From positions 1-11,647 of the forward strand of contig JAUUYI010000033.1 in NCBI GenBank assembly GCA_030590525.1: 11,647 nt of DNA, given 5' to 3'. The DNA comes from Sedimenticola sp. Lineage in GTDB: Bacteria; Pseudomonadota; Gammaproteobacteria; Chromatiales; Chromatiaceae. Below are positions 7,851 through 11,612 of the stretch, one piece after another. Positions within the stretch are counted from its first letter, which is position 1. Every line of letters starts with the position of its first letter. The translations under genes and the position numbers were made by a program. The notes beneath the pieces were generated by a model that was given only the letters and a program-made list of their open reading frames with translations, ran no database searches and was not told the origin of the DNA.

Positions 7851-9791
7851 ATGGGAAAAATCATAGGGATCGACCTGGGTACCACCAACTCCTGTGTGGC
7901 AGTGATGGAAGGTGACAAGGCCCGCGTCATCGAGAACAGTGAGGGTGATCGCACCACGCCGTCGATCATCGCTTATACCGGTGACGGAGAGGTGCTTGTG
8001 GGCCAGTCGGCCAAGCGCCAGGCGGTGACCAATCCGCACAACACGCTGTCAGCCATCAAACGCCTGATCGGCCGCAAGTTCGAGGACGATGTGGTCAAAC
8101 GCGACATGGATATGGTCCCCTATAAGATCGTCAAGGCGGACAACGGTGACGCCTGGGTGGAGGCCAACGGCAAGAAGATGGCCCCACCCGAGATTGCGGC
8201 CAAAGTACTGCAGAAGATGAAGAAGACCGCTGAGGATTATCTCGGCGAAGAGGTGATAGAGGCCGTGATCACGGTACCTGCCTACTTCAACGACTCTCAG
8301 CGTCAGGCGACCAAGGATGCAGGTCGGATCGCCGGCCTGGATGTGAAACGCATCATCAATGAGCCGACGGCAGCGGCCCTCGCCTACGGTATGGACAAGC
8401 AGACCGGGGATCGGAAGCTGGCTGTCTATGACCTGGGTGGTGGCACCTTCGATGTCTCCATCATCGAGATTGCCGAGATCGACGGTGAGCATCAATTCGA
8501 GGTGCTGGCAACCAATGGCGACACCTTCCTGGGCGGTGAAGATTTTGATCTGCGCATCATCGACTACCTGGTGGAGAGCTTCAAGAAGGAGCAGGGTGTT
8601 GATCTGCGCAACGACCCGCTGGCACTGCAGCGGCTGAAAGAGGGGGCGGAGAAGGCCAAGATCGAGCTCTCCTCGAGCCAGCAGACAGACATCAATCTGC
8701 CCTATATTACCGCAGACGCCAGTGGACCCAAGCACCTGAACATCAAGTTGACCCGGGCCAAACTCGAGTCGCTGGTGGAAGCGTTGATCGACCGGACCAT
8801 GGAGCCCTGCAGGGTGGCGATGAACGATGCGGGCGTCTCTTCATCCGATATCGATGACATCATCCTGGTGGGTGGTCAGACCCGTATGCCGAAGGTGCAG
8901 GAGAAAGTGAAAGCGATCTTCGGCAAGGCGCCGCGCAAGGACGTCAACCCGGACGAGGCGGTGGCCGTAGGTGCGGCGATCCAGGGTGGTGTGCTGGCCG
9001 GCGACGTGAAAGATGTGTTGCTGCTGGATGTGACCCCGCTCTCCCTCGGTATCGAGACCATGGGTGGTGTGATGACCAAGCTGATCGAGAAGAACACCAC
9101 TATCCCGACCAAGGCGAACCAGGTATTCTCCACCGCGGACGACAACCAGACAGCGGTCACGGTACATGTGCTGCAGGGTGAGCGTGAACAGGCCTCGGCC
9201 AACAAGTCACTGGGTCGTTTTGACCTGACCGACATCCCGCCAGCGTCGCGTGGGGTGCCGCAGATCGAGGTGAACTTCGACATCGATGCCAACGGCATCC
9301 TCAACGTGTCAGCCAAAGACAAGGCTACCGGTAAGGAGCAGTCGATCGTGATCAAGGCATCTTCCGGTCTGAATGATGCGGAGATCGAACGTATGGTCAA
9401 GGATGCCGAAGCGCACGTGGAAGATGATCGGAAGTTTCATGAGATCGTAACGGCCCGCAACAACGCCGATACCCTGATCCATGCCAGCAAAAAGTCCATG
9501 GAAGAGCTTGGTGACAAGATGGAATCGGGTGAGAAAGAGGCCATCGAGAGTGCCATAAAGGATCTCGAAGAGGTGATGAAGAGCGAGGATAAGGATGCGA
9601 TCGAGGCCAGAACCAAGACCCTGACCGATGCTTCCGCCAAGATGGCAGAGCGCCTCTATGCCCAGCAGGGTGGTGATGCTGCCGCGGGTGCAGAAGCCGC
9701 CGGTGCTGCGGGTGCGGAAGCTTCATCGGCCAGTGGTTCTGATGATGTGGTCGATGCCGAGTTCGAAGAGGTGAAGGACGACAAGAAGTGA
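7851..9791 (+). CDS. dnaK: Chaperone DnaK (Hsp70)
   Basis: DnaK binds exposed hydrophobic peptides and folds or protects them in an ATP-driven cycle with DnaJ and GrpE; it also controls sigma-32 stability in proteobacteria. The 646-residue product aligns collinearly with E. coli DnaK (638). The nucleotide-binding domain (1-385) has GIDLGTTNS with Thr11, Lys70, Glu171 and DLGGGTFD at 194-201 with Thr199, all at the same numbers as in E. coli. The interdomain linker VLLLD is at 389-393, followed by the substrate-binding beta domain and helical lid. An Ala/Gly/Ser-rich tail ends in the conserved [19 protein letters not shown] 10 nt before the ATG is the ribosome binding site. Unusually, 358 bp separate it from dnaJ. 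Confidence 0.99.
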
Positions 9792-9808
9792 CACTTTAAC
9801 GGGTACTA

Positions 9809-10072
9809 GTACTCCAACAAGGTTATATTGATGGTCTCAGCGGGCCTGGAAGGGGTTAGGCACAAGGCTCGTCTCGCAGGGAATGGCTTGCCCTTTCCAA
9901 GAGGCGCAACGCCGTGGATGACCCCTTCCAGGCCCGCCCGAAGGGAGCCCCCCAAATGCGCCCATGCGGCGTTGTCGTCCTTGATAAGGGTGAAGCCATT
10001 GTCTGCGGACGGTGCCTTGCATGGACACATTTGGGGGGCTCTGAGTCCGTCAATATAACCTTGTTGGAGTAC
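9809..10072. repeat. Structured four-way-junction element between dnaK and dnaJ (MITE-like or structured RNA)
   Basis: The element is 264 nt. P1 pairs 9809-9840 with 10041-10072: 32 positions, of which the outer 23 (9809-9831 / 10050-10072) are a perfect inverted repeat, with one G-U and one T-T further in. P2 pairs 9841-9856 with 9921-9936, 16 bp perfect. P3 is CCC-GAA-GGG at 9937-9945. P4 pairs 9946-9958 with 10028-10040 (13 bp perfect) and continues inward through CCATGC (9962-9967) and GCATGG (10019-10024). P1, P2, P3 and P4 abut with no unpaired nucleotide. The P2 loop also holds a GGCG-CAA-CGCC hairpin (9903-9913). The outer arms can be read as TA-CTCCAACAAGG and CCTTGTTGGAG-TA, suggesting a TA-targeting MITE. 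A 10-bp palindrome GTACTAGTAC (9803-9812) overlaps the left end. It has no coding signal. The pairing is read directly; the function is unknown. Confidence 0.85.
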
Positions 10073-10084
10073 CAGAGAACGAAG

Positions 10085-10115
10085 CGTGCGGGTGCTTGAG
10101 GTGCCCGCGCGTTTT
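10085..10115 (+). terminator. Intrinsic-terminator-like hairpin before dnaJ
   Basis: CGTGCGGG (10085-10092) and CCCGCGCG (10104-10111) pair over 8 bp (one T-G), with an 11-nt loop, followed by TTTT (10112-10115). The T-run is short, so partial termination or attenuation of dnaK transcripts is more likely than a full stop. It ends 34 nt before the dnaJ start. Confidence 0.5.
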
Positions 10116-10122
10116 CGCATGT
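10095..10122 (+). promoter_or_regulatory. Weak sigma-32-like promoter candidate for dnaJ
   Basis: CTTGAG (10095-10100), 14 nt and TCGCATGT (10115-10122) match the heat-shock consensus at 5 of 6 and about 4 of 6 core positions, with the same spacing as the dnaK promoter. It overlaps the terminator-like hairpin, so the two readings compete. It would explain dnaJ expression without read-through from dnaK. Confidence 0.3.
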
Positions 10123-10149
10123 CAGACGACGGAAAAACGCAGATCGAAA

Positions 10150-11286
10150 ATGTCACAACGCGACTACTATGAAGTGCTGGGTCTCAATAAGAATGCAAGC
10201 GAGGCCGAACTGAAGAAGGCTTACCGCCGGCTGGCGATGAAATATCACCCAGACCGCAATTCAGGAGAGGATGCGACGGCAGCGGAGGCACAATTCAAAG
10301 AGGTAAAGGCCGCCTACGAAATTCTCAGTGATCCCCAGAAGCGCGCCGCCTATGACCAGTTCGGGCATGCTGGCGTGAATCCCTCCATGGGTGCTGGACC
10401 CGGTGGGGCTGGGGGGGCCAGTTTCAGCGATATATTTGGCGATGTATTCGGCGACATGTTCGGCGGGGGACGTGGTGGTGGAGCGAGAGTACAACGTGGC
10501 GCCGATCTGCGTTACAACCTCGAGCTGACTCTGGAGGAGGCCGTGGCCGGTACCTCGGTCAAGATCCGGGTTCCGACACTGGTCAAATGTAATGTCTGTC
10601 GGGGAACCGGTACCAGGAAAGGCAGTAGTCCCAAGACCTGCCAGACCTGCGGTGGGCATGGCCAGGTGCGGATGCAGCAGGGCTTCTTCTCGGTTCAGCA
10701 GACCTGTCCCACCTGCCACGGCAAGGGGACAGTGATCGATGATCCCTGTACTGCCTGTCATGGGGCCGGCCGGGTGCAGCAGCACAAGACACTGTCGGTG
10801 AAGGTGCCAGCGGGTGTCGATACCGGGGACCGTATCCGTCTGGGAGGTGAAGGTGAGGCCGGTGAGAATAGTGGCCCGCCAGGCGATCTTTATGTCCAGG
10901 TGATGGTCAAGGAGCATGAGATCTTCACCCGGGAAGAGAACAACCTCTATTGCGGAGTCCCCATCCCCTTCGTCATCGCTGCTCTGGGTGGAGAACTGGA
11001 GGTGCCGACCCTGAATGGAAAGGTAATGCTGAAGATACCGGGTGGAACCCAGTCCGGAAAGATGTTCCGTATGCGTGGAAAGGGCGTGAAACCGGTGCGG
11101 GGCGGGCCACTGGGTGACCTGCTGTGCCGGGTGATCGTAGAGACCCCGGTCAATCTGACCGAGGAGCAGAGGGGTATCCTGCGCCAGTTCGAGAAGACCA
11201 TGGAAGGGAGTGGCAAGAAACATAATCCGAATGCCCACTCCTGGCTGGGCGGGGTCAAGAAGTTCTTCGAGAATATGGGTTTTTGA
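10150..11286 (+). CDS. dnaJ: Co-chaperone DnaJ (Hsp40, class A)
   Basis: DnaJ brings unfolded clients to DnaK and triggers its ATP hydrolysis. From ATG 10150 the product is 378 residues (E. coli 376). The J domain (1-70) has the HPD motif at 33-35. A Gly/Phe-rich linker follows at about 74-112 with repeated [13 protein letters not shown]. The zinc domain has all four CxxCxGxG repeats, with cysteines at 147/150, 164/167, 186/189 and 200/203. The C-terminal peptide-binding domains contain [18 protein letters not shown] and [19 protein letters not shown]. The frame is open further upstream, but [12 protein letters not shown] is the conserved N-terminus. No good ribosome binding site precedes the ATG, unlike grpE and dnaK. 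Repeat elements flank the gene on both sides. No clear terminator follows the stop directly. Confidence 0.98.
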
Positions 11287-11294
11287 AGCGGGAT

Positions 11295-11461
11295 CTAGGA
11301 GCCTGTCGGACTTAGGATGAATCTACTGCGGAAAAGCCCTTTTGGCCCATTTTTCCGCTCATTCTCGTTAAATATGAATAACTATTCGCCTCAAATGAAC
11401 GAAAAAATGGACTCAAAATGGTTTCCCTCGCTACGATCCCCTAAGTCCGACAGGCTCCTAG
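11295..11461. mobile_element. MITE-like element with 22-bp terminal inverted repeats
   Basis: The 22-bp arms 11295-11316 and 11440-11461 are perfect inverted repeats. They contain TA then GGAGCCTGTCGGACTTAGG on the left and the mirror image then TA on the right, consistent with a TA target duplication. The total length is 167 bp, too short for a transposase. Inside is an AT-rich segment with a GCGGAAAA / TTTTCCGC hairpin (11328-11335, 11351-11358), also close enough to dnaJ to stabilise its transcript end. Classification as a non-autonomous element is inference; the parent transposon is not identified. Confidence 0.7.
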
Positions 11462-11534: not shown

Positions 11535-11612
11535 GTAGGGTGGGCACGTTGTTTTTGCCCACCAAAGCGCCTTGTATCGCAATGGTGGGCACAAAAAAAG
11601 TGCCCACCCGAC
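11535..11612. repeat. REP-like palindromic pair (BIME-like), second copy
   Basis: GTAG (11535-11538) is followed by the hairpin GGTGGGCA (11539-11546) / TGCCCACC (11556-11563). The inverted partner is GGTGGGCAC (11584-11592), seven A, GTGCCCACC (11600-11608), then CGAC, which reads GTCG on the other strand. The architecture equals the pair at 5584-5673, with GGTGGGCA stems in place of GATGGGCA. The second hairpin is GC-rich but has no T-run after it. The remaining DNA after dnaJ (11463-11534 and 11613-11647) shows nothing recognisable. Confidence 0.65.

Follow-up and report, generated by a model that had tools for sequence, protein, structure and literature searches.

What holds a strongly folded, gene-less element in place between two genes of an apparent heat-shock unit? 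The DNA analyzed here, a stretch of 11,647 nt from Sedimenticola sp. (the window), carries such an element between two open reading frames (ORFs) that we take to be dnaK and dnaJ, the first because it resembles DnaK and was so named in an initial sequence-only reading of the window, the second on the same footing. That reading described a four-way junction stacked without unpaired nucleotides, suggested that it was selected as a folded RNA or as a DNA cruciform, and proposed that it could set the DnaK:DnaJ ratio.

The predicted fold bears out the first of these statements. By RNA minimum free energy (MFE), positions 9809–10072 form four helices around a junction without any unpaired base, with the arms where they had been placed, at -172.6 kcal/mol compared with -98.4 (sd 5.33) in 200 dinucleotide shuffles, none of which matched it (0/200; z -13.92). 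Read from the sequence, P1 (9809–9840 with 10041–10072) comprises 30 Watson–Crick pairs, the exceptions being one T·G (9832/10049) and one T·T mismatch (9835/10046), while P2 spans 9840/9841 to 9936/9937, P4 spans 9945/9946 to 10040/10041, and P3 is the mini-hairpin CCC-GAA-GGG. The helices of 16 and 13 positions first assigned to P2 and P4 were correctly located but too small, as each is a whole 96–98-nt hairpin with internal loops. For G9840, C9937, G9945 and C10041 there are two equivalent pairings, neither of which leaves a base over, so that the junction can move by one pair; the MFE model takes the second alternative, in which P3 is 2 bp. Folded alone on either strand, P2 and P4 give z scores of -5.24 to -8.20. 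As had been supposed, the fold corresponds to no known RNA family: the window holds no Rfam family at gathering score, a permissive scan of 9780–10150 returned sub-threshold matches only (best MIR477, 24.3 bits against 65 required), and Rfam 15 found a tRNA and nothing else in 18 further loci.

P2 and P4 represent the same 96–98-nt hairpin module in inverted orientations. They have in common, on the plus strand for P2 and the minus strand for P4, a core of about AATGGC..GCCCTT.TCAAG....CAACGC set between unrelated arms, and a covariance model of the module, R1, scores P4 at 84.2 bits on the minus strand and 32.0 bits on the plus strand. The module is found again in 85 distinct elements whose ends are of many kinds, reduced from 109 oriented entries that were extracted by a core match with at most three substitutions and at least 24/35 matching end letters. 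Among the 170 module sides of these elements, 63 are 96 nt and 59 are 98 nt long, and 157 have at least 13/20 arm pairs. Both modules were recognized in 75/85 elements (one of these, L179, with an impossible overlap), and in 71 of the 75 the junction is flanked by the four letters G, C, G, C. The linker is exactly 7 nt in 57/75, with CCNNNGG in 56; it is 6 nt in 2, 25–28 nt in 14 (the ATTAACCC-type group and its kin) and odd in two. The closed four-way junction is thus common but not universal, as the longer linkers leave it open, and elements with a single module exist (for example L103). In L170–L172, from genome G166, the modules have grown to 138 and 165 nt through extra sequence within the apical part. 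At L271 (about 1465–1740) the same two modules stand behind ends that differ from the CTAGT ends; these begin GAGCCTGTTGATGATCTTTTCAT and presumably belong to another insertion sequence (IS) family.

Table 1. Features of the element and its neighbors in the window.
Feature	Positions	Strand	Evidence and remarks
dnaK, upstream neighbor, outside element	7851..9791	+	ORF of 646 aa; name presumed
CTAG target, left end	9806..9809 (TA at 9807-9808)	.	sequence; right counterpart CCAG at 10072-10075
P1, left terminal inverted repeat, 32 nt	9809..9840	+	inverted repeat I1
P2, hairpin module, 98-nt type	9840..9937	+ (forward on +)	R1 79.3 bits; -64.3 kcal/mol, z -6.32
P3, mini-hairpin CCC-GAA-GGG (7-nt linker plus two flanking letters)	9937..9945	+	sequence
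P4, hairpin module, 96-nt type (97 nt here)	9945..10041	- (forward on -)	-59.1 kcal/mol, z -8.20
P1, right terminal inverted repeat, 32 nt	10041..10072	+	inverted repeat I1
dnaJ, downstream neighbor, outside element	10150..11286	+	ORF, ATG at 10150 in frame; homologues in 10/12 genomes searched; name presumed

The element is MITE-like, with a CTAG/TA target and no recognizable gene. At 264 bp, with 32-nt ends that are 30/32 Watson–Crick, it has the short length and terminal inverted repeats by which MITEs are defined, and a 116-aa ORF across it matches nothing in Pfam, nor any NCBIfam model above cut-off. Its borders in the window are CTAG on the left and CCAG on the right, and those of other copies are CTAG or near variants; copies such as L002 and L005 show a clear TA target duplication, which in the window is degenerate (TA/CA). 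The genome itself (2.34 Mb in 389 contigs, 70% complete) holds six full or nearly full copies including that of the window, to which the other five are 89–94% identical. Two further copies are partial, and there are miniatures consisting of nothing but the terminal repeats, such as one of 61 bp at C174:7613–7673. The whole element was matched in 10 of the 55 relatives searched, its own genome counted, and a plasmid collection searched with the window element and the L134 element gave no match at 1e-5. By a rough classification that relies on mechanically called ORFs and counts as inside an ORF any element within one of at least 100 codons, 31 of the 85 elements lie between co-directional ORFs, 17 between divergent and 16 between convergent ones, 8 in an ORF and 13 at an edge; no leaning of insertion toward transcribed gaps is visible among them. 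At many of the borders an ORF ends no more than a few bases away, as would follow from an overlap between CTAG and a TAG stop. Two elements of G166, L203 and L209, are inserted in the terminal CTAG of another element with a different end type, forming head-to-tail clusters.

The dnaK–dnaJ gap is empty in a genome of the same genus (G001), measuring 94 nt there and 358 nt here with both flanks 84% identical, so comparing relatives, which had been proposed as a check, told against a tie between element and site. Given the empty gap and the mobility of the repeat, a dedicated heat-shock role is unlikely. In both genomes the gap contains a native GC-rich hairpin followed by TTTT ahead of dnaJ. In the window this hairpin lies at 10080–10118; its counterpart in G001 keeps the pairing, it is absent from the list of the consensus scan, and it looks like an attenuator between dnaK and dnaJ. 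Scanning 9700–10300 yielded no promoter-like sites and one terminator-like site, on the minus strand within the start of dnaJ. Right after dnaJ lies a second, different MITE-like element (11295–11461; 167 bp, CTAG at both ends), whose 22-bp inverted ends, CTAGGAGCCTGTCGGACTTAGG, are perfect. Close to where the contig ends, a third hairpin (11535–11612) has 35-nt arms that are 83% complementary and 8 nt apart, and is a weak fourth match to R1 at 13.3 bits.

CTAG is the preferred target of IS630. The first eight letters take 33 different forms among the 85 elements, several of which are related by point changes, while P1 keeps a length of about 32 nt, counted from the first base beyond CTA and running to CAG, and its halves agree at a median of 29/31 positions. 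We compared these ends with ten IS630-family ISs that have visible inverted ends, in six of which the letters following CTAGT agree with an element end over a run of 8–17; with shuffled ends such a run was reached in 0/500 trials for five of these ISs and in 3/500 for L252. The remaining four have no long run in common with any element end. The best case, a 1,186-bp IS at G166:C71 with 17 shared letters, encodes an IS630 transposase (NF033545, 259 bits; PF13358, 76 bits). The window copy's own end type is present in 32/204 genomes of the order. The 30 loci fetched with that end yielded no IS that bears it: partner ends there are 163–293 bp apart or absent, and none stands at IS length. From the sister end types, by analogy, we infer that an IS630 transposase moves this end type too. 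An IS630-type fragment is present on contig C78 of the same genome. PF13358 was found in 2/8 element-bearing genomes searched and not in the single-contig G156, and the elements of genomes without it may be relics, or another agent may have moved them. Some elements of G166 (L190, L205 and L212) are chimaeras whose left and right ends do not match. Loci L279, L296, L299 and L305 hold ~35-bp palindromes consisting only of the outer part of CTAGTACTCC-type ends, with overlapping matches on both strands.

Whether the interior is a passive filling was addressed by covariation, the very check that the sequence-only reading had named for P2 and P4. Among 28 ungapped A modules (set A1: 28 of the 96-nt modules, at <85% identity), 93.3% of 980 cells pair and two-sided change is seen in 25/35 pairs, with a covariation of 0.655 compared with 0.174 (sd 0.013) in shuffles and 0.064–0.142 when the strands are slid. 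The 24 B modules (set A2: 24 of 30 others, excluding L078:1896, L069:1460, L147, L112 and both L179 rows) are 91.8% paired, with two-sided change in 31/35 pairs and a covariation of 0.771 compared with 0.228 (sd 0.016) in shuffles; in both sets the shuffles keep the kinship of the rows. As these rows had been picked partly by arm pairing, the analysis was repeated on 131 stretches picked by the core alone (at most two substitutions, loci L001–L189). At least 6/7 pairs of the inner helix form in 118/131 of these, against a mean of 44.3 (maximum 58) with re-dealt strands, and at least 15/18 arm pairs in 110/131, against a mean of 9.4 (maximum 15), again with the kinship of rows kept. Compensatory change is therefore strong in both modules, including the core-only set, and together with an interior that is kept while the ends vary between relatives it upholds the suggestion of selection on the fold beyond the terminal repeats. 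In the A1 alignment A25, G26, A59, A60, A68, A69 and C70, which lie in the internal loops of the model, are among the letters invariant in all 28 modules, and the commonest apical pairs, at columns 40–57 and 41–56, are tandem G·U. That the fold is conserved more than the letters across many distantly related bacteria suggests that it does a job.

The two strands of a module are not equivalent. Using the 73/85 elements with at least 12/18 arm pairs on both sides, we counted arm wobble pairs in the forward reading and found that G·U outnumbers A·C by 31 to 8 among 30 A modules and by 54 to 16 among 32 B modules (<80% identity in each), compared with 29 to 20 in P1 of 40 elements. This excess is concentrated at arm positions 15–20; at positions 2–14 it is 11:6 (A) and 19:10 (B), which is not significant. 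The forward strand is also the more stable one in 24/27 A and 24/29 B modules with RNA parameters, and in 21/27 and 26/29, respectively, with DNA parameters. Since A and B are oppositely oriented, a simple bias of replication or transcription would favor different strands in them. The preference for the forward strand favors a single-stranded fold, of RNA or of single-stranded DNA (ssDNA), over a cruciform. Because the preference holds with DNA parameters as well, it does not separate RNA from ssDNA, although G·U as the commonest apical pairs leans toward RNA.

These observations weigh differently on the explanations that compete for the element. That it evolved as a regulator of the dnaK–dnaJ unit is scarcely credible: it does sit between the two genes, where a 35-bp-class mRNA duplex would be a plausible RNase III substrate, yet copies lie elsewhere in the genome, the site is empty in the same genus, and both genomes already have the native hairpin with TTTT ahead of dnaJ, points on which the proposed control of the DnaK:DnaJ ratio founders as well. 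An ordinary MITE would carry its hairpins as passengers, their arms kept complementary by template switching (quasi-palindrome correction) with no selection on the fold. Arm correction by template switching is an established mutational process, and the terminal-repeat-only miniatures, with the ~35-bp palindromes, indicate that the interior is dispensable for presence in a genome. Such correction would, however, mend the internal loops too, whereas the loops remain unpaired and their letters vary the least; the inner helix covaries between them, the same core and 7-nt linker stand behind many ends, and both modules show strand asymmetry in their wobble pairs, all of which makes this account improbable. 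The initial reading had held that relatives conserving the terminal repeats alone would reduce the element to such a MITE; the relatives show the opposite, but miniatures of just that kind do occur in the same genome.

A DNA cruciform or four-way junction selected for binding by a junction-binding protein, one of the two possibilities raised at the outset, would suit the flanking G, C, G, C (71/75) and the 7-nt linker (57/75). In a cruciform both strands fold and each G·T in one is an A·C in the other, so that no bias is expected, whereas a bias is seen in wobble pairs and in fold stability alike; elements with the open 25–28-nt linker (14/75) and with one module (L103) persist besides, and we judge a selected cruciform very unlikely. 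The main rival is ssDNA at transposition or replication, where a hairpin on the displaced or lagging strand would aid transposition, replication or the exchange of element halves. It would also account for the presence of one forward module per strand, the forward strand is the more stable with DNA parameters too, the G166 chimaeras (L190, L205, L212) imply that halves are exchanged, and the core is common to different end types. Against it, IS630-family transposition is a double-strand cut and paste, as reported for ISY100 (PMC2170065), and tandem G·U as the commonest apical pairs is easier to understand in RNA; selection as ssDNA therefore strikes us as rather unlikely.

On balance we consider it likely that the element is a non-autonomous IS630-type element whose module is selected as a folded single strand and whose dnaK–dnaJ site is incidental. 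It would have inserted recently at a CTAG between the two genes, its ends (P1) serving a transposase that acts in trans. The interior would be a two-headed chassis in which P2 and P4, as inverted versions of one module joined by the mini-hairpin, give either strand exactly one module in the forward sense. The forward module would show conserved internal loops, AAGGC opposite AACGC and GCA opposite CAA, held on a ~20-bp arm of almost free sequence, and would be selected as a folded single strand, RNA being likelier than ssDNA. More tentatively, forward modules in transcripts may be recognized by a host factor conserved across the phylum, such that insertions would be better tolerated, through processing or insulation of the transcript, and the element would persist; the two-headed layout would secure that recognition in either orientation.

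The module extends well beyond the genus. The core pattern (at most three mismatches) occurs in 39/210 genomes of the order, with a backward control of zero in the rows listed, and at least seven inverted core pairs with the same 85-nt offset are found among the matches listed. It is also present in 63 stretches of named contigs, some of which are chance matches in coding DNA, with Microbulbifer, Nitrosomonas, Kangiellaceae, Methylophaga, Amphritea and Psychromonas among the titles; the culturable Microbulbifer rhizosphaerae accounts for several of the matches. Model R1 finds a match at E ≤ 1e-6 in 57/398 genomes sampled from the phylum, the element's own included, of which the weakest are uncertain and may be structure-only, as the E-values are rough and wrong-strand matches in the fetched loci, which were the control in place of shuffled genomes, reach 49.0 bits. 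A match at E ≤ 1e-9 is found in 46 of the 57, and 25 of the 57 lie outside the element's own class, nearly all in one family (f58). Module pairs with the 7-nt gap are present in other families, in G330 (two), G420 and G509.

Among known bacterial repeats, REP pairs (BIMEs) likewise set two hairpins in opposite directions. Those hairpins are short, however, and associated with a Y1 (RAYT) transposase, whereas the present modules measure 96–98 nt and sit within ends that resemble those of DDE-type IS630 elements. The 107-bp RUP of Streptococcus pneumoniae, proposed to be mobilized by IS630-Spn1, is similarly small and gene-less, with IS630-like inverted ends, a TA target and many intergenic copies (PMC2229807), but it is described as a single element type that has the ends of just one IS, whereas the present interior covaries behind many end types. 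Correia/NEMIS elements of Neisseria are MITEs with TA at their termini whose transcript stem-loop is a proposed RNase III target (PMC2229807); that stem-loop forms by end-to-end pairing, and its description there includes no two-module interior. The CIR repeats of Caulobacter and Brucella, called unlike other bacterial repeats, resemble the element in an RNA fold of two long inverted-repeat arms and a linker, but expose GANTC in a terminal loop and, as described there, have no P1 derived from mobile-element ends (PMC2229807). Identity with CIR was rejected, the apical loops of P2 and P4 being without GANTC. A description of the module was not found in Rfam 15 or in the literature searched, which took in PMC2229807, PMC10969869 and few subscription journals, and a full-text search for the core letters matched one paper, which was unrelated.

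The broader reading, that the module represents a widespread and undescribed class of mobile structured RNA or ssDNA that uses the ends of many ISs and shows its loops to a host factor in either orientation, is one we put forward with some reserve; its span would take in at least two other classes of the phylum besides the Gamma- and Betaproteobacteria. In presenting loops to a host factor the module may be likened to a SINE, which carries a host-derived recognition signal. Bacterial MITEs have mostly been read as IS ends around a meaningless filling, whereas in this case it is the filling that is kept, and the ends can be exchanged. If this reading is true, the element would show clearly that a mobile element without genes can be selected for its fold, its covariance model would be able to name many unannotated repeats, and the module would provide a handle on a host factor.
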